Shown piece by piece: positions 13,548 through 35,511 of a stretch of DNA of 64,000 nucleotides; the first letter of the stretch is position 1, and the number at the start of each line of letters is the position of its first letter. Source of the stretch: Halogeometricum rufum (lineage in GTDB: Archaea > Halobacteriota > Halobacteria > Halobacteriales > Haloferacaceae); contig NZ_FOYT01000001.1 in assembly GCF_900112175.1 (NCBI RefSeq), forward strand, positions 558,001-622,000, written 5' to 3'. The notes below the pieces were generated by a model. The model was not told where the DNA came from. It worked only from the letters and a program-made list of their open reading frames with translations, and did no database searches. The position numbers were made by a program, and so were the translations under genes.

Positions 13548-15032
13548 TCAGAGCCCGTACAGCGACTCGAACTTCGCCGTCGCGTAGTCGCAGAAGGCGT
13601 CCGCCGACAGCGACTCGCCCGTCGCCTCCGCGACGAGTTCGTCCGTCGGGTACCGCCGGCCGCGCCGGTGGACGTTCTCGGCCAACCACTCGTGCATCGG
13701 TCCGAACTCCCCGTCGCGAATCAGGGCGTCCACGTCGGCCAGTTCCTCGCGCATCGCGGCGTCCAACTGCGCCGCGAGGACGCTCCCGACGGTGTAGTTC
13801 TGGAACGCGGCGAGGTAGCCGGCCGTCCAGTGGATGTCCTGCATGCACCCCGCCGCGTCCGTCTCGGGACGGACGCCGAGGTACTCCTCCATCTTGTCGT
13901 TCCACACCGCGGGCACCTCCGCCACCTCGATGTCGCCGCCGAGGAGGGCCTTCTCCGTCTCGAACCGGACGAGGATGTGCAGGTGGTACGTCAACTCGTC
14001 CGCCTCGACGCGAATCACGTTGTCCGGCTTCACCCGGTTGACCGCGGCGTAGGCCGCCTCTGCGCTCGCCTCCGAGCCGAGTCGGTCGTTCACGACGCCG
14101 ACGAACCCCTCCCAGAACGGGCGCGTCCGGCCGACGTGGTTCTCGAAGAACCGCGACTGGGACTCGTGGACGCCGTGACTCCCCGACTCGCCCAACGGCG
14201 TCGCGTAGCGGTCCTGCGGCAGGCCGAGGTTGTACGTCGCGTGGCCGAACTCGTGCATCGTCGAGGTGAGGCCCGCGAGGGGGTCGGACTCGTCGAACCG
14301 CGTCGTCACGCGGCAGTCGAACTGCGTCCCGAACGTGAACGGGTGCGCCGACGTGTCGAGTCGCCCTCGCGCCCAGTCGTAGCCGAGGCGGTCCAGCACG
14401 TCCTCCGAGAGGGCGTACTGCGCGTCCTCGTCGTACGCGCCGTCGAACGGCGTCGGCAGTTCGTCCGCCGCGCGAATCTCGTCGACGAGGGGGACGATGG
14501 TCTCCTTCAGGTCCGCGAATATCTCCTCGACCGTCGAGAGGGGCAGGTGCGGTTCGGAGTCCCCGTAGATGGCTTCGAACGGGTGGACGTCCGGGTCGAG
14601 GTGCGCCGCGCGTTCGCGGTAGAGGTCGACGATGCGTTCGAGGGTGGGCGCGAGGGCGTCGAAGTCGTCGTCGGCCTTCGCGTCCACCCACGTCTCGTGC
14701 GCCCCGGACTCGACGCGCGATATCTCGGCGACGAGTTCGTCCGGCACGCGGACGGCGCGTTCGTGCTGTCGGCGAATCTCTCGCACCGCGGCCCGTTCGT
14801 CGGCCGCCAGCGACTCCTCGTCCACCTCGGCCAGCAGTCGGCCGAGTTCGTCGGCGGTCAACAGGTCGTGTTCGACCGAGGAGAGCGTCGACCGCTGTTC
14901 GGCGCGGGCGGGCGTCCCGCCTTCGGGCATCACGGTCTGCTGGTCCCACATCAGCACGCCGTCGGCGTGGCGGACGTTGGAGACGCGTCGGTAGCGGTCG
15001 AGGAGGGCGTCGTACGTGTCGCTCGTGGACAT
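13548..15032 (-). CDS. M32-family metallocarboxypeptidase, copy 1
   Basis: 494 aa zinc carboxypeptidase of the Taq/Pfu type, removing C-terminal residues in the cytoplasm. The catalytic HEFGH (about residues 258-262, in TMHEFGHATYNLGL) and the second family motif HESQSRFFENHVGR are intact. The N-terminal MWDQQTVMPEGG is the conserved M32 entry motif. ATG 15032 was preferred because the ten extra residues of a longer reading are Arg-rich and unlike the family. It follows a paralogue by 90 bp on the same strand; the two were probably made by tandem duplication. Confidence 0.92.
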   Translation of the reverse strand: MSTSDTYDALLDRYRRVSNVRHADGVLMWDQQTVMPEGGTPARAEQRSTLSSVEHDLLTADELGRLLAEVDEESLAADERAAVREIRRQHERAVRVPDELVAEISRVESGAHETWVDAKADDDFDALAPTLERIVDLYRERAAHLDPDVHPFEAIYGDSEPHLPLSTVEEIFADLKETIVPLVDEIRAADELPTPFDGAYDEDAQYALSEDVLDRLGYDWARGRLDTSAHPFTFGTQFDCRVTTRFDESDPLAGLTSTMHEFGHATYNLGLPQDRYATPLGESGSHGVHESQSRFFENHVGRTRPFWEGFVGVVNDRLGSEASAEAAYAAVNRVKPDNVIRVEADELTYHLHILVRFETEKALLGGDIEVAEVPAVWNDKMEEYLGVRPETDAAGCMQDIHWTAGYLAAFQNYTVGSVLAAQLDAAMREELADVDALIRDGEFGPMHEWLAENVHRRGRRYPTDELVAEATGESLSADAFCDYATAKFESLYGL

Positions 15033-15122
15033 GCCTCGTCGGTCTCGCCGCGAGCGTATCAATCTCCGTCAGCCGGCAGTCCGCGAGAGAAAGGGGTCGA
15101 CGGAGGGAGTGCCGAGGAGGGG

Positions 15123-16661
15123 TTACGCGTCGATGTCGTACAGGTCGCCGTACTTCTCGGTCACGTAGTCGGTGAACGCGTCGGCGGTGAAGTCCTCACC
15201 GGTCGCCTGCACGACGAGTTCGTTCGTCTCGTAGCGGCGTCCGTGCCGGTGGACGTTCTCGGTCAGCCACTCGTGGAGGGGTTCGAAGTCGCCCTCGGCG
15301 ATGTGGTCCTCCAAGTCGTCGATGTCGTCCTCGGCGGCCGCGTACAACTGCGCGGCCATCACGGACCCGAGCGAGTACGTCGGGAAGTAGCCGAAGTTGC
15401 CGTGACTCCAGTGGATGTCCTGCAGACAGCCCTCGGAGTCGGACTCGGGGCGGACGCCGAGGTACTCCTCGTACTTGTCGTTCCACACCTCGGGCACCTC
15501 CTCGACGTCGATGTCGCCGGCGATGAGTGCGCGCTCTATCTCGAAGCGGACGATGATGTGCAGGTGGTAGGTCAACTCGTCCGCCTCGACGCGGACGAGG
15601 TTGTCGTCGTACACCTGGTTGGCCGCCTCGTACGCCTCCTGCAGCGTCACGTCCTCGGCCTTCGGGAAGTGCTCCTTGAAACTGGGGAGCAGGACGTTCC
15701 AGAACGCCTCCGACCGGCCGACGTGGTTCTCCCAGAGGCGAGACTGCGACTCGTGGACCGAGAGGTTGCGGTCCTCGCCCAGCGGCGTCGCGTAGTGCTC
15801 GTCCGGCAGGCCGAGGTTGTACGTCGCGTGGCCGAACTCGTGGACCGTCGAGAACAGCGAGCCGAGGGGGTCCGTCTCGTCGAAGCGCGTCGTCACGCGG
15901 GCGTCGAACATCGTCCCCGAGGAGAACGGGTGCGACGACGTGTCCATGCGGCCGCGCTCCCACGGGTAGCCCAGCGTCGAGAGCACGTCGCGGCAGAGTT
16001 CCTCCTGGTCGCCCTCGGGGTAGTCGCCCTCGCGGGTGAACGCGTCGGTGGCGATGTCGTCGCCCTCCTCGCGAATCTGCTCGATCATCGGCACGAGGGT
16101 GTCGCGGAGTTCGTCGAGAATCTCCTCGGCCTGTTCGAGGGGGAGACACGGCTCGAAGTCCTCGAACAGCACCTCGTAGGGGTCCTTGTCGGGGTCGATG
16201 TGCTCGGCGTACTCGCGCTTGAGTTCGACGTGCTTCTCGAGGTACGGCGCGAACGTCGAGAAGTCGTCCTCGGCCTTCGCCTCCTCCCACGCCGGGAGCG
16301 CCTCCGAGGAGGTGGTCGAAATCTCCTCGACCAGTTCGGAGGGGACGCTCACCGCGCGGTCGTACTCGCGGCGAATCTCGCGGACGACGGCCGCCTGCTC
16401 GTCGGTCAGGTCGGCGTCTTCGAGTTCGTCCAACTGCTCGCCCACCTCGTCGTCGGTGAGCAGTTCGTGCGACAGCGACGACAGCGTCGACAGTTGCTGG
16501 GACCGGGCCGGGTTGCCGCCCTCGGGCATCATCACCTGCTGGTCCCACGACAGCAGTCCGCCCGCGTTGCGGACGTTCGCCACGCGTTTGTACGTCTGGA
16601 GGAGGTCCGTGTACGCGTCCGGTGCCGACTCCGAGTCGGAGCCTGCGGCTTCAGTTGCCAT
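15123..16661 (-). CDS. M32-family metallocarboxypeptidase, copy 2
   Basis: 512 aa. Same architecture as the neighbouring copy: SWDQQVMMPEGG near the N-terminus, HEFGH about residues 273-277, and HESQSRLWENHVGR as the second signature. Active-site motifs are intact, so both copies are probably functional. It is the promoter-proximal copy. Compared with copy 1 it has a longer acidic N-terminus (MATEAAGSDSESAPDA) and an acidic insertion (GDYPEGDQEE). The pair may differ in substrate, but that is not visible here. ATG 16661 gives the best start. Confidence 0.92.
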   Translation of the reverse strand: MATEAAGSDSESAPDAYTDLLQTYKRVANVRNAGGLLSWDQQVMMPEGGNPARSQQLSTLSSLSHELLTDDEVGEQLDELEDADLTDEQAAVVREIRREYDRAVSVPSELVEEISTTSSEALPAWEEAKAEDDFSTFAPYLEKHVELKREYAEHIDPDKDPYEVLFEDFEPCLPLEQAEEILDELRDTLVPMIEQIREEGDDIATDAFTREGDYPEGDQEELCRDVLSTLGYPWERGRMDTSSHPFSSGTMFDARVTTRFDETDPLGSLFSTVHEFGHATYNLGLPDEHYATPLGEDRNLSVHESQSRLWENHVGRSEAFWNVLLPSFKEHFPKAEDVTLQEAYEAANQVYDDNLVRVEADELTYHLHIIVRFEIERALIAGDIDVEEVPEVWNDKYEEYLGVRPESDSEGCLQDIHWSHGNFGYFPTYSLGSVMAAQLYAAAEDDIDDLEDHIAEGDFEPLHEWLTENVHRHGRRYETNELVVQATGEDFTADAFTDYVTEKYGDLYDIDA

Positions 16662-28823: not shown

Positions 28824-29345
28824 TCAGTGGACCAGTCGGCTACAGGTGCCGCAGAGGTGTTCCTCCTTCACGTCCACCTCGCGGACCGTGGGGGAGAAGG
28901 ACATGACGCACTTCGAGTTGTCGCAGTGTTCGAGTCCGAGCGTGTGGCCGATTTCGTGGACGACTTCCTTCCGGACCCGGTCGGAGAACACCTCGGCCTG
29001 CGGCTTGGTCGAGATGCCGCCGTCGGAGGACGTCTGGAGCCGATACGTCGAGATGACCGACCCGTTTCCGTTGAGATAGGCGAGTCCGAAGACGTAGTTT
29101 CGACGCCGGTAGTAGAGGTCCTGCGCCGTGATACCGATGTTCTTCTCGCCGCTGCCGACCCGACTCGCGAGTTCGATGAACTGCTCCGCTCGATACTGGT
29201 TCCGGCCGCGGTCGAACGCGCCTTCGGGGATGGACTGCTCGCTGTGGACGGTGACGTCGCAGTCGTAGACGCCGCGGAGGGCCGCAGAAGCCTCGCGCTT
29301 CACCTGCGCAGGGAGGTCCCCGATAGGCACGATATCGACAAGCAT
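28824..29345 (-). CDS. amzA: Archaemetzincin (zinc metalloprotease)
   Basis: 173 aa. The extended zinc motif is HEIGHTLGLEHC (His130, Glu131, His134, His140, Cys141). It is followed by Cys146 in KCVM, whose Met forms the Met-turn, and a CGTC pair (165-168) that completes the second structural zinc site typical of archaemetzincins. All expected residues are present. The longer reading upstream is antisense to the UPF0146 gene and was discarded; start at ATG 29345. It is divergent from UPF0146, with only 39 bp between the starts. Confidence 0.92.
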   Translation of the reverse strand: MLVDIVPIGDLPAQVKREASAALRGVYDCDVTVHSEQSIPEGAFDRGRNQYRAEQFIELASRVGSGEKNIGITAQDLYYRRRNYVFGLAYLNGNGSVISTYRLQTSSDGGISTKPQAEVFSDRVRKEVVHEIGHTLGLEHCDNSKCVMSFSPTVREVDVKEEHLCGTCSRLVH

Positions 29346-29384
29346 GAAAGTTGTTAAGCGGGGCGGTGTCATAAATATCCCGCC

Positions 29385-29816
29385 GTGGAATCCCCAGTTC
29401 GAGACGCTCTTACTGCACGTCTCTCGGAGTACGAGCGACTCACGGAGGTCGGGGTCGGCCGCCGTCCGGCGGTGGCCGTCGCCCTCGCCGCCGCCGGGTC
29501 GGCGGTGACCGTCACGGACGTCCACCCGTTCGACGTTCCCCCCGAACTCCGCTTCGTCGAGGACGACGTCGTGGCCGCGAGCGAACGCGCAGACCCCGGC
29601 CCGGCGTACCGCGCCGACGCCGTCTACGCACTGAACCTCCCGCCCGAACTCCACCGGCCGGTCCGCGACGTGGCTGCCGCCGTCGACGCGGACTTCCTGT
29701 TCACCACGCTCGGCTTCGACGCGCCCGCCGTCCCCTGCGACGCCGAGACGCTGGCCGACGGCGCCGAGACGCTGTACGTCGTCGCCTGCGACGACCGTCC
29801 GAAAGGACAACGCTAA
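29385..29816 (+). CDS. UPF0146 family protein
   Basis: 143 aa starting at GTG. The sequence [31 protein letters not shown] recalls a Rossmann-like nucleotide-binding fold and the UPF0146 family of archaeal proteins of unknown function. [16 protein letters not shown] is the second conserved block. A methyltransferase-like SAM pocket has been suggested by fold only; no catalytic residues can be assigned. Divergent from amzA; followed by a HAD gene 25 bp downstream on the same strand. Confidence 0.75.
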
Positions 29817-32203: not shown

Positions 32204-33457
32204 CTACGACAGTTCCGACCGCGGCACCGTCGCCGCCTCCCCGTACAGCGTCTTCGCGACGAGGGCGCCGACGACGAGGACCAGTCCGACGCAGGCCAGA
32301 TACTCCGCGCGGAACCCGACTATCTCGACCAGCGGTACCGCGACGAGGGGGCCGAGCGTCGACCCGAGGTCGCCGAACACGTTGTAGACGCCGCCGAGTT
32401 TGCCCACGTCGTCCGAGGGGCTGAGGTCGCCGAGGTACGCGAGCAACGGCGGGTTCGACCCGCCGACGCCGACGCCGACGAGGGCGACGGCGACCAGCGT
32501 CGCCGCGAGCGTCGGGACGAGGGCGAGGAGGGCGAACCCGGCGGCGAGCAGTCCGAGTGCCGGCAGCGTCAGCGCCGCGCGGTTCGAGAGCCGGTCCGAG
32601 TAGCGACCGACGACGAGCGTGGTGAGACTCGACGCGACGACGGCGACGGCCATGACGACGCCGCTGACGCCCGTCTCGGACAGCACGCCGATGCTGATGT
32701 CGTGCGCGCCGGCGTAGAGGACGGCCGTCGAGAGGAGGACGCCGGCGAACAGGAACCGGACGGCGAAGTTGACCGCGCCGACGGTGAAGATGCGCACGTC
32801 CGTCCGGACGAGTTTCGGCACCTCGCGCAGCGAACTCGTCGCCGAGACGTCGGTGCGAACGTTCGGGAGGACCAACGCGACGACGGCGGCGGCGAACAGG
32901 CCGGCACAGCCGGCGACGAGGAACGCCTCCGAGTAGCCGAGGGCGTCGGTGACGAGGCCGCCGACCACGAGTCCGGCCGGGAAGCCGAGGCTCTGGCCGC
33001 CGCGCATGTAGCCGACCCACTTGCCGCGGTTCGCCGCCGTCGTGACGTGCGTGATGGTGCTGAACGCGCCGACGAACACGAACGCGGAGCCGACCCCCCA
33101 GACGGCCCGCGAGAGGACGAACACCGTCGCGCTGTCGAGGGGGACGACGGCCGCGTGGAGGCCGAGGACGTAGCCGAACGGCGCGAGTCCCTGCCCGACG
33201 AAGCCGGCTATCATCGGCCGGCGCGTCCCGTACCGGTCCAGCACCTGCCCGGCGGGCGTGTTCATCACCAGTCGAGTGAAACGGTTGGTCGAGAGGATGA
33301 GGCCGACGAGGAACGGCGAGATGCCGAGGATGGGTCCGAACGTCGGGAGCGTCGGGAAGGCGACGCCGGCGCCGACGCCGCCGAAGAACACGCCGGCGAT
33401 GAGGCTCCCGGCGACGAAGCGAACGCTCGGTTCGTCGCCGCCGAACCACCGGCTCAC
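32204..33457 (-). CDS. Major facilitator superfamily transporter
   Basis: 417 aa with about 12 hydrophobic helices in two halves; the loop between helices 2 and 3 is DRYGTRRPM, the MFS signature A variant. PAGLVVGGLV and GGSNPPLLAYLGDLSP lie in later helices. Substrate is unknown; drug or metabolite efflux is typical of this type. No ATG exists near the first helix. GTG 33457 (MSRWFGGDEPSV) gives a ten-residue cytoplasmic leader; starts further upstream would add Arg-rich sequence and cannot be excluded. Confidence 0.75.
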   Translation of the reverse strand: MSRWFGGDEPSVRFVAGSLIAGVFFGGVGAGVAFPTLPTFGPILGISPFLVGLILSTNRFTRLVMNTPAGQVLDRYGTRRPMIAGFVGQGLAPFGYVLGLHAAVVPLDSATVFVLSRAVWGVGSAFVFVGAFSTITHVTTAANRGKWVGYMRGGQSLGFPAGLVVGGLVTDALGYSEAFLVAGCAGLFAAAVVALVLPNVRTDVSATSSLREVPKLVRTDVRIFTVGAVNFAVRFLFAGVLLSTAVLYAGAHDISIGVLSETGVSGVVMAVAVVASSLTTLVVGRYSDRLSNRAALTLPALGLLAAGFALLALVPTLAATLVAVALVGVGVGGSNPPLLAYLGDLSPSDDVGKLGGVYNVFGDLGSTLGPLVAVPLVEIVGFRAEYLACVGLVLVVGALVAKTLYGEAATVPRSELS

Positions 33458-33668: not shown

Positions 33669-34199
33669 TCAGTCGTCCGCGAGAGTCTGCCGAATCTCCG
33701 CGGCGGTCTCGCGGTCCTCGACCATCAGGATGAACTCTCCCTCCCACTCGCCCTCGGCGATGTCCGCCGCGAGACGCGCCGAGACGCCGAACCGGTTGAC
33801 CGTCTCGCCGTCGTACCGCAGGACCACCTCGAACGGGTCGGGGTCTTCGCCGACGCCGGCCGCGCGAAACGCCTCGCTCACCTCGGCCGCCGTGGCGTCG
33901 GCGAGGACGACCGGCAGGCCGTACCCGCCCGACCGCTGTTTCTGCACCTCGCCGACGCGCGACACGCCGGCCCCGGTGAACAGCGTCCGGTCCGTCTCTG
34001 GGCCGACGAGGCGCATCTCGACGCTCGCCGGGTCCGCGGCGTCGGCGGTCGGCGTTCCGCCTTCGTCCGTCTCGGTTCTCGAACCCGATTGCGCCGTCGC
34101 GTCGTCGTCGGTTTCCAGTCCCGCGGCGGAGCATCCCGCGAGGAGGGCTGTCGCTGTCGTTCCGAACAGTCCGAGCGTCGCACGTCTGGAGGGCGGCAT
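33669..34199 (-). CDS. Tat lipoprotein with SecD P1-head-like domain
   Basis: 176 aa. RRATLGLFGTTATALLAGC is a twin-arginine lipoprotein signal with the lipid-accepting Cys23. After an acidic, Thr-rich linker (25-60) the domain VEMRLVGPETDRTLFTGAGVSRVG continues through YGLPVVLADATAAEVSEAF and ends GEWEGEFILMVEDRETAAEI. This resembles the extracytoplasmic P1-head (SecDF P1 head) of archaeal SecD, but without SecD's membrane helices. The protein should therefore sit on the outer face of the membrane. A Sec-translocon gene (secG) lies about 1.2 kb upstream on the same strand. Function is inferred. Confidence 0.65.
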   Translation of the reverse strand: MPPSRRATLGLFGTTATALLAGCSAAGLETDDDATAQSGSRTETDEGGTPTADAADPASVEMRLVGPETDRTLFTGAGVSRVGEVQKQRSGGYGLPVVLADATAAEVSEAFRAAGVGEDPDPFEVVLRYDGETVNRFGVSARLAADIAEGEWEGEFILMVEDRETAAEIRQTLADD

Positions 34200-34266: not shown

Positions 34267-34569
34267 TCAGAAGCGGTCCCGCAGTTCGGCGCGCAGGTCG
34301 TCCAGCGAGGCGCCCTTCATCGAGAGGAGGACGAGCAGGTGATACACGAGGTCGGCGCTCTCGGCCAGCAACTCCTCGGTGTCGTCGTCCTTCGCCGCGA
34401 GGATGGCCTCCGTCGTCTCCTCGCCTATCTTCTCCAAGACGTAGTTCTCGCCCTTCTCGTGGGTGAACAAGGTCGTGGTGTACGAGTCGTCCGGCAACTC
34501 GGCCTTCCGCGCCTCGATGGTCGAGAACAGGGCGTCGAGCACCGCGTCGGAGTCGGATTCATCGGTCAT
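34267..34569 (-). CDS. hisE: Phosphoribosyl-ATP pyrophosphatase
   Basis: 100 aa all-alpha MazG-like enzyme catalysing the second step of histidine synthesis, PR-ATP to PR-AMP. Conserved metal-binding acidic clusters are visible in YVLEKIGEETTEAILAAK and LLAESADLVYHLLVLL. The size is normal for a free-standing HisE. It is third in the same-strand run secG-pdxT-hisE; hisH lies about 9 kb away, so histidine genes are dispersed. Confidence 0.92.
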   Translation of the reverse strand: MTDESDSDAVLDALFSTIEARKAELPDDSYTTTLFTHEKGENYVLEKIGEETTEAILAAKDDDTEELLAESADLVYHLLVLLSMKGASLDDLRAELRDRF

Positions 34570-34641: not shown

Positions 34642-35244
34642 TCAGTCCGCGGCCTCGGCCTCGATTCGGTCGAAGAACGCCAGGTCGTGCAGGCGACTGT
34701 CGTCGGTCAGTTCGGGGTGGAAGGAGGTGCCGACGACGGGACCCTGCCGCACGGCGACGGGCGTCCCCTCCCACTCGGCCAACACGTCGACGCCCTCGCC
34801 CACCTCGTCGATGAGGGGGGCGCGGATGAACACCGCCGGGAAGGGGTCGTCCATCCCCTCGACGTCGAGGGGGGCCTCGAAACTGTCCACCTGTCGGCCG
34901 AACGCGTTCCGGTCGACGGTCACGTCTAGCAGGTCCAGCGTCTCCACCCGGTCGTCCTTCGCGTCCCGGGAGGCGACGATGAGTCCGGCGCACGTCGCCA
35001 GCACGGGTTTGCCGGCGGCGACGTGGTCGCGTATCTCCTCGTCGATGCCCTCGCGCTTCAGGAGGCGCGAGATGGCCGTGGACTCGCCGCCGGGGACGAG
35101 AAGCACGTCGCAGTCGGGGACGTGGCCGGACTGACGAATCTCGACGACTTCGACCGGTTCTCCGTGGGCCTCGGCCGCGCTACGGATGGCCGCGGCGTGT
35201 TCGGACACGTCGCCCTGCACGGCGACGACGCCTGCGCGTAACAT
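34642..35244 (-). CDS. pdxT: PLP synthase glutaminase subunit
   Basis: 200 aa class I glutamine amidotransferase that supplies ammonia to PdxS for pyridoxal 5'-phosphate synthesis. The oxyanion/Gly motif LLVPGGESTAISRLL, nucleophile Cys85 in ATCAGLIV, and catalytic His176 and Glu178 in FHPELT are present. ATG 35244 yields the canonical MLRAGVVAVQGDVSEH. pdxS is not in the window. It probably shares a transcript with secG upstream and hisE downstream. Confidence 0.93.
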   Translation of the reverse strand: MLRAGVVAVQGDVSEHAAAIRSAAEAHGEPVEVVEIRQSGHVPDCDVLLVPGGESTAISRLLKREGIDEEIRDHVAAGKPVLATCAGLIVASRDAKDDRVETLDLLDVTVDRNAFGRQVDSFEAPLDVEGMDDPFPAVFIRAPLIDEVGEGVDVLAEWEGTPVAVRQGPVVGTSFHPELTDDSRLHDLAFFDRIEAEAAD

Positions 35245-35346: not shown

Positions 35347-35511
35347 TCAGAACGCGACGGCGTTCAGGACGAGGACGCCGACGCCGAAGAGGAGGCCGAA
35401 CGCGACGACGCTCTTGGGGTCGAGACGGATGGCGTTGCGGTCCTCGGCGTCGAAGTACCGAACGAGACCCGCACTAGACATCAAGCCACCGCTGTTCTGT
35501 CCGCTGCTCAT
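35347..35511 (-). CDS. secG: Preprotein translocase Sec61-beta/SecG subunit
   Basis: 54 aa. The sequence reads [20 protein letters not shown], then [18 protein letters not shown], and finishes with a single membrane helix ([16 protein letters not shown]). That is the typical archaeal Sec61-beta layout: Ser/Gly-rich disordered N-terminus, a short conserved cytosolic motif with SAGLVRYF and one C-terminal tail anchor. It associates with SecYE at the translocon. The gene is easily missed because of its size. It heads the secG-pdxT-hisE run. Confidence 0.92.

Follow-up and report, generated by a model that had tools for sequence, protein, structure and literature searches.

A gene on the reverse strand of the window, the 64,000-nucleotide stretch of DNA analyzed here (contig 1 of the haloarchaeal genome G000, positions 558001–622000), encodes a free-standing homolog of the SecD P1 head, with neither the P1 base nor the twelve-helix SecD-SecF motor attached. 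Within the proton-driven SecDF motor, it is the P1 head that does the gripping. The protein belongs to a previously overlooked family of predicted lipoproteins which no Pfam or NCBIfam model names, and across the haloarchaea the SecD head has been detached from the motor and re-anchored in several ways.

Gene and domain layout

The gene (33669..34199, −; 176 codons) starts with an ATG, has the Shine-Dalgarno-like GGTGAG a short way upstream, and contains all three peptides that the original prediction quoted. A Tat-type signal peptide (residues 1–22, MPPSRRATLGLFGTTATALLAG; 34134..34199, −) is followed by the codon for Cys23 of the lipobox LLAGC, the predicted lipid attachment site (34131..34133, −), and by an acidic linker rich in Ser, Thr, Asp and Glu (residues 24–56; 34032..34130, −), neither the sequence nor the length of which is conserved. 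The remainder is a single domain of ~120 residues, the P1 head (residues 57–176; 33672..34031, −), which stops at the point from which SecD runs on through the RAGALP junction to its base and second membrane helix. Both the base and the junction are absent from the lipoprotein, as the alignment to SecD covers the head only and the motif is missing, and no SecD_SecF_C membrane helices with ion-relay residues follow the head. The real SecD and SecF of this genome are encoded on contig 2.

Homology to SecD and predicted fold

The exported part of the protein had been said to resemble the extracytoplasmic P1 head of archaeal SecD, and this resemblance was borne out by profile searches and controls. 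NCBIfam haloarchaeal SecD models match the P1-head portion of the protein (E 1.6e-4) and match 10 of 18 family members (best E 3.6e-7), all far under the curated cut-offs, so annotation pipelines would leave the protein unnamed. The SecD of its own genome is its second-best match (34% identity, E 2e-4). Profile-profile alignment (hhalign) of the 18 members with 24 haloarchaeal SecD sequences gave a probability of 98.8%, an E of 5e-17 and a score of 121 over 127 columns, spanning SecD residues about 192–341, i.e., the whole head, at about 26% identity; by comparison, 25 column-shuffled profiles scored 23 or less and a reversed profile scored 17. Conserved positions in common with SecD include G83, G115, D130-G131-E132, L143-A144, G150, W152, F156, A166 and L173, of which G150 and W152 are typical of haloarchaeal SecD and not of methanogen SecD.

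Acidic, low-complexity haloarchaeal sequence might mimic SecD through its composition with no homology at all, a reading to which the weak single-sequence matches (E 1e-4) and the Pfam P1-head model (PF22599, SecDF_P1_head), which the protein does not match at the cut-off, could lend themselves. However, PF22599 is also weak on true haloarchaeal SecD, most of which fail it. Together with the independent evidence from structure, the profile-profile test with its shuffled and reversed controls refutes a composition-only likeness, and we find this reading scarcely credible.

An AlphaFold model computed from an input of two sequences only, residues 52–176 of the window's protein and the relative from Halogranum rubrum (L068), had a mean pLDDT of 91.2 and a pTM of 0.81. 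When this model was compared with the PDB using Foldseek, the top nine matches were all SecDF or the SecDF P1 domain (best E 8.7e-4). VIA-align returned Z scores of 10.1 (5xap), 9.9, 9.8 (3aqo) and 9.7 (5yhf) over 108–109 of 125 residues, while the best unrelated fold reached 4.4. The structure prediction suggested as a check on the resemblance to SecD has now been run, and it found the P1-head fold with SecDF P1 domains ranked first. A search of PDB sequences with the family profile returned chance matches only; the solved bacterial SecDF proteins are too distant in sequence and so were reached by fold alone. No credible match was seen among the viral structures of BFVD.

On these grounds we hold it to be virtually certain that the protein is a P1-head homolog with a P1-head fold. 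It is alike to the SecD P1 head (NCBIfam PRK08343 series NF006215/NF006217; PF22599; 3AQO, 5XAP, 5YHF) in homology over the whole head, in fold and in the side of the membrane. Unlike SecD, it lacks the P1 base, the RAGALP junction, the membrane helices and a SecF in cis, has a predicted lipid anchor and predicted Tat export, and falls in a separate clade.

Tat signal and lipid anchor

Most haloarchaeal lipoproteins are predicted Tat substrates, with LAGC as the commonest lipobox and with 12–21 residues separating the second Arg of the signal from the Cys (PMC2945643). The window's protein has this pattern, i.e., a twin-arginine n-region (SRRATLG), a hydrophobic stretch and [L/V]-A-G-C, with Cys23 after LLAG and separated from the second Arg by 16 residues. 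All 18 relatives in the alignment share the Gly-Cys of the lipobox. Among 56 family members from fetched loci, the twin arginine is found in nearly all and a lipobox in most, the lipobox positions being first matches of a regular expression, a few of which were wrong and were read by eye. Judged from these signals, the protein is very probably a haloarchaeal Tat lipoprotein with a predicted lipid on Cys23, and the originally proposed tether, a lipid in place of membrane helices, is supported as a prediction by the twin arginine, the lipobox and the invariance of its Gly-Cys. A Halorubrum-like sub-clade (g21; L029, L030, L032–L037) has kept the twin-arginine signal and lost the lipobox Cys, so the anchor of these members must differ, either through an uncleaved signal or through release.

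Distribution and phylogeny of the family

Of 391 Halobacteriales genomes, 70 (about 18%) gave a match to the family profile with an E of 1e-16 or lower. Carriers number 42 in the window's own family (f1), 10 in f4, nine in f14, eight in f7 and one in f10, whereas none was found at E 1e-10 outside Halobacteriales in a phylum-wide sample of 120 genomes. Among the genomes searched the family is thus confined to salt-loving archaea, where its presence is patchy. A single-sequence pattern scan of genome contigs detected no relatives, and a search with an alignment of eight rows recovered one named relative, from Halogranum rubrum. No relatives were found in viral contigs or in plasmids. One locus (L135, genome G427) carries two adjacent, strongly diverged copies. 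A literature search returned no paper on stand-alone P1 heads and none on SecD together with PGF-CTERM. In bacteria, stand-alone P1 heads would be represented by the actinobacterial proteins that carry the annotation 'SecDF P1 head subdomain-containing protein'.

In a maximum-likelihood tree of the heads, all lipoproteins form one clade apart from the SecD of haloarchaea and other archaea (support 100/99, and 100/100 in a second tree), the deep order being uncertain in trees of 140–152 columns. The tree gave no support to the idea of a recent origin of the lipoproteins from within haloarchaeal SecD. Within the lipoprotein clade, f4 sequences fall among those of f1, e.g., that of genome G382 beside the window's genus (96/87), which suggests either that the gene was passed between haloarchaea or that old paralogs were widely lost.

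Other detached SecD heads

Three other haloarchaeal families (f4, f7 and f12) show a second way of re-anchoring, found in 16 genomes. These proteins (L189/L203, L191/L199, L192/L201, L193/L202, L194, L200, L204–L210, L212 and L214) combine a Sec-type signal, a P1 head with or without the base, a linker rich in Thr, Ser and Asp and a C-terminal PGF-CTERM anchor. Five of them were scanned, and these matched NCBIfam SecD at E 1e-18 to 1e-48 and scored above the cut-off of the PGF_CTERM model in two cases and just below it in three. Like the lipoproteins, they are stand-alone P1 proteins without a motor that are held at the cell surface, and they lie between SecD and the lipoproteins in the tree; they differ in their N-terminal signal, in the archaeosortase-type anchor at the C-terminus, in the P1 base kept by some and in a sequence closer to SecD. 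The order in the tree, with base-keeping PGF-CTERM forms nearest SecD, head-only PGF-CTERM forms next and lipoproteins furthest, fits a stepwise series, a pattern which linker residues and long branches could mimic. Re-anchoring of P1 in these other lineages suggests that a motor-less head is useful alone.

Further variants were seen. Among the PGF-CTERM forms, L208 has two tandem copies. L196, L197 and L198 are longer Tat lipoproteins of about 320–350 aa with a P1 head and a base-like part. In two genomes of the phylum outside Halobacteriales, L190 and L195 are SecD P1-like proteins rich in lysine, in which a single hydrophobic helix stands at the N-terminus and both the C-terminal membrane bundle and the motor are lacking.

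Gene neighborhood

The original prediction also pointed to a secG gene in the same strand run, and the location is right: the secG/Sec61-beta-like gene (35350..35511, −) lies on the strand of the lipoprotein, upstream of pdxT, of the SNO glutamine amidotransferase family (34642..35244, −), and of hisE, encoding phosphoribosyl-ATP pyrophosphohydrolase (34267..34569, −), which lies 67 nt upstream of the lipoprotein. An MFS transporter gene (32204..33457, −) follows 211 nt downstream. The order secG, pdxT, hisE, lipoprotein, MFS transporter is found in three species of the window's genus. As evidence for a role in Sec transport the location fails, since secG and pdxT stay together in relatives without the lipoprotein. 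The run secG-pdxT-hisE occurs without the lipoprotein in three other genera (G062, G098 and G007), and across the five genomes examined hisE is present in four. In the congener G040 hisE directly adjoins the MFS gene and the lipoprotein is absent, and in the congener G038 neither hisE nor the lipoprotein is present between pdxT and the MFS gene (L168). We treat hisE, pdxT and the MFS gene as neighbors only, not as parts of a system.

Elsewhere the neighbors are varied and metabolic. Other clades have phytoene synthase-like, histidinol dehydrogenase-like, cytochrome oxidase, menaquinone, carboxypeptidase M32-like and further genes beside the lipoprotein, most of these names outside the genus being read from sequence. 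Across 41 loci no conserved neighbor was found beyond single clades, and no sec gene recurs. In one f4 genome (G438) the lipoprotein lies one gene away from hisE-pdxT, with secG not near, and an old link of the lipoprotein to this place is possible. Co-occurrence with Sec genes is uninformative because SecD was found in 24 of the 25 genomes searched and the lipoprotein family is present in about 18%. Carriers surround G040 in the SecD tree, so that loss is the simplest reading and the gene was probably lost in this congener.

Two other features of the window were observed. Two adjacent carboxypeptidase Taq (M32)-like genes at 13548–16661 look, as read from the sequence, like a tandem duplication. 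At 28824–29400 (−) an archaemetzincin-like metalloprotease motif, HEIGHTLGLEHC...CVMSF, lies within a longer ORF, the N-terminal part of which looks spurious.

Evolutionary rate

The lipoprotein head of the window's species is 52–54% identical to those of two congeners, and the SecD head 79–82%. In the same comparison, dN/dS estimated by NG86 was about 1.1 for the lipoprotein head vs. 0.3 for the SecD head at similar dS; NG86 is biased in GC-rich genomes, and the comparison with the SecD of the same genomes is what counts. For pdxT and the MFS gene dN/dS was about 0.1–0.3. Over ten genome pairs, not all of them independent, dN/dS of the lipoprotein head ranged from 0.19 to 1.14, with eight pairs at 0.19–0.65, and its dN exceeded that of the SecD head in 8 of 10. 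The family is under constraint yet fast-evolving, most of all in the window's genus.

The ratio of about 1.1 for the window's copy against its two congeners is what would be expected if the gene were a functionless duplicated fragment of SecD in the course of being lost, and the absence from two congeners, one of which branches within the carriers, and the in-frame stops in the match from G006, a genome outside the genus, could be taken the same way. Against such decay, most of the pairs compared within the family have a dN/dS under 1, and the clade is old and order-wide with an intact signal peptide, lipobox and domain, which relics would not keep over such divergence. We consider a decaying relic unlikely.

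The rates also bear on a possible role in regulating SecDF. Domain-sized mimics are a common mode of regulation, and a free head of the same domain on the same side of the membrane as the SecD head might occupy the partner surface that the latter visits, on the translocon or the base, and so tune or inhibit SecDF by competition. The RAGALP junction and the contacts with the base are missing from the lipoprotein, however, and within the genus its surface has a divergence rate of about three to five times that of the SecD head, which hardly points to an interface conserved to fit the slowly changing SecDF. A regulator or competitor of this kind appears improbable.

Proposed function

In bacterial SecDF, the ion-driven membrane part moves the P1 head, which binds the translocon-engaged chain, and membrane-anchored PpiD contacts the SecD P1 head and is proposed to hand chains over to it (PMC7793623, PMC11470409). 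Euryarchaea have SecDF, which has no known role there, and lack SecA (PMC2910488). We tentatively favor, at somewhat less than even confidence, the reading that the lipoprotein is a passive polypeptide-binding head acting on exported proteins. The protein would be exported by Tat, already folded, and tethered to the outside of the membrane by the predicted lipid on Cys23 through the flexible acidic linker of about 33 residues. There it would keep the job of the SecD head, the passive binding of stretches of unfolded exported polypeptide, at a place that we infer to be near the translocon. Having no ion-driven motor, it could not pull; it could hold the emerging chain to prevent backsliding or aggregation, or hand it over to SecDF or to folding, much as is proposed for PpiD and the SecD P1 head of enterobacteria, and it would be an accessory that cells can gain or lose.

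As a possible working analog, PpiD/YfgM, periplasmic proteins of enterobacteria that partner SecYEG and SecDF from a membrane anchor, are likewise anchored, ATP-independent and on the outer side. Their fold is unrelated, and the Sec contacts of PpiD are experimental, whereas the lipoprotein is known here from sequence and predicted structure.

The polypeptide-binding reading draws on the homology, the fold, the signals and the core residues DGE, LA, G-W, F, A and L shared with haloarchaeal SecD, as well as on the constraint seen in dN/dS, the function of the head in SecD and the parallel of the PGF-CTERM forms. What speaks against it is that no conserved neighbor ties the lipoprotein to Sec and that patchy presence and fast divergence are unlike a dedicated part of the translocon. 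The patchy presence, the apparent loss and the fast divergence argue against a core component and not against an accessory; the originally suggested new translocon component is a possibility.

Export in a folded state by Tat and the new anchor also leave room for a changed job. The head fold may have been kept and its use changed, giving a surface lipoprotein that binds ligands or peptides (nutrient peptides, or interaction with the cell wall or S-layer) and is unrelated to translocation. The strong divergence from SecD heads (about 26% identity), the lack of Sec neighbors, the fast evolution and the patchy distribution, with clades not following the family tree, are all in keeping with such a change. 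However, no metabolic or transporter neighbor is conserved either, the lipoprotein retains the head core together with residues of haloarchaeal SecD, e.g., those of the G-E-W turn, and the fact that this SecD domain has been anchored separately more than once hints that its original binding property was selected for. We regard a changed use as quite conceivable, if on balance doubtful.

A broader scenario, speculative and rather unlikely in its full form, would extend the polypeptide-binding reading to all of the detached heads. Haloarchaea may have turned the SecD head into a class of motor-less, surface-anchored holding factors, freed from the proton motor, given a PGF-CTERM anchor in some lineages, first with and then without the base, and finally a Tat-lipoprotein anchor. 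These would coat the outside of the membrane with a layer of passive chaperones for Sec-exported, salt-sensitive unfolded chains in organisms without SecA and without a periplasm.

Even if its function is unrelated to Sec, the lipoprotein family represents an unannotated recruitment of a domain that was repeated with several different anchors. A widespread head-only family with a predicted lipid anchor on the outside separates gripping from pulling, and thereby raises the question of what the head does without force. With a natural motor-less head and its PGF-CTERM cousins, haloarchaea offer ready-made tools for that question.
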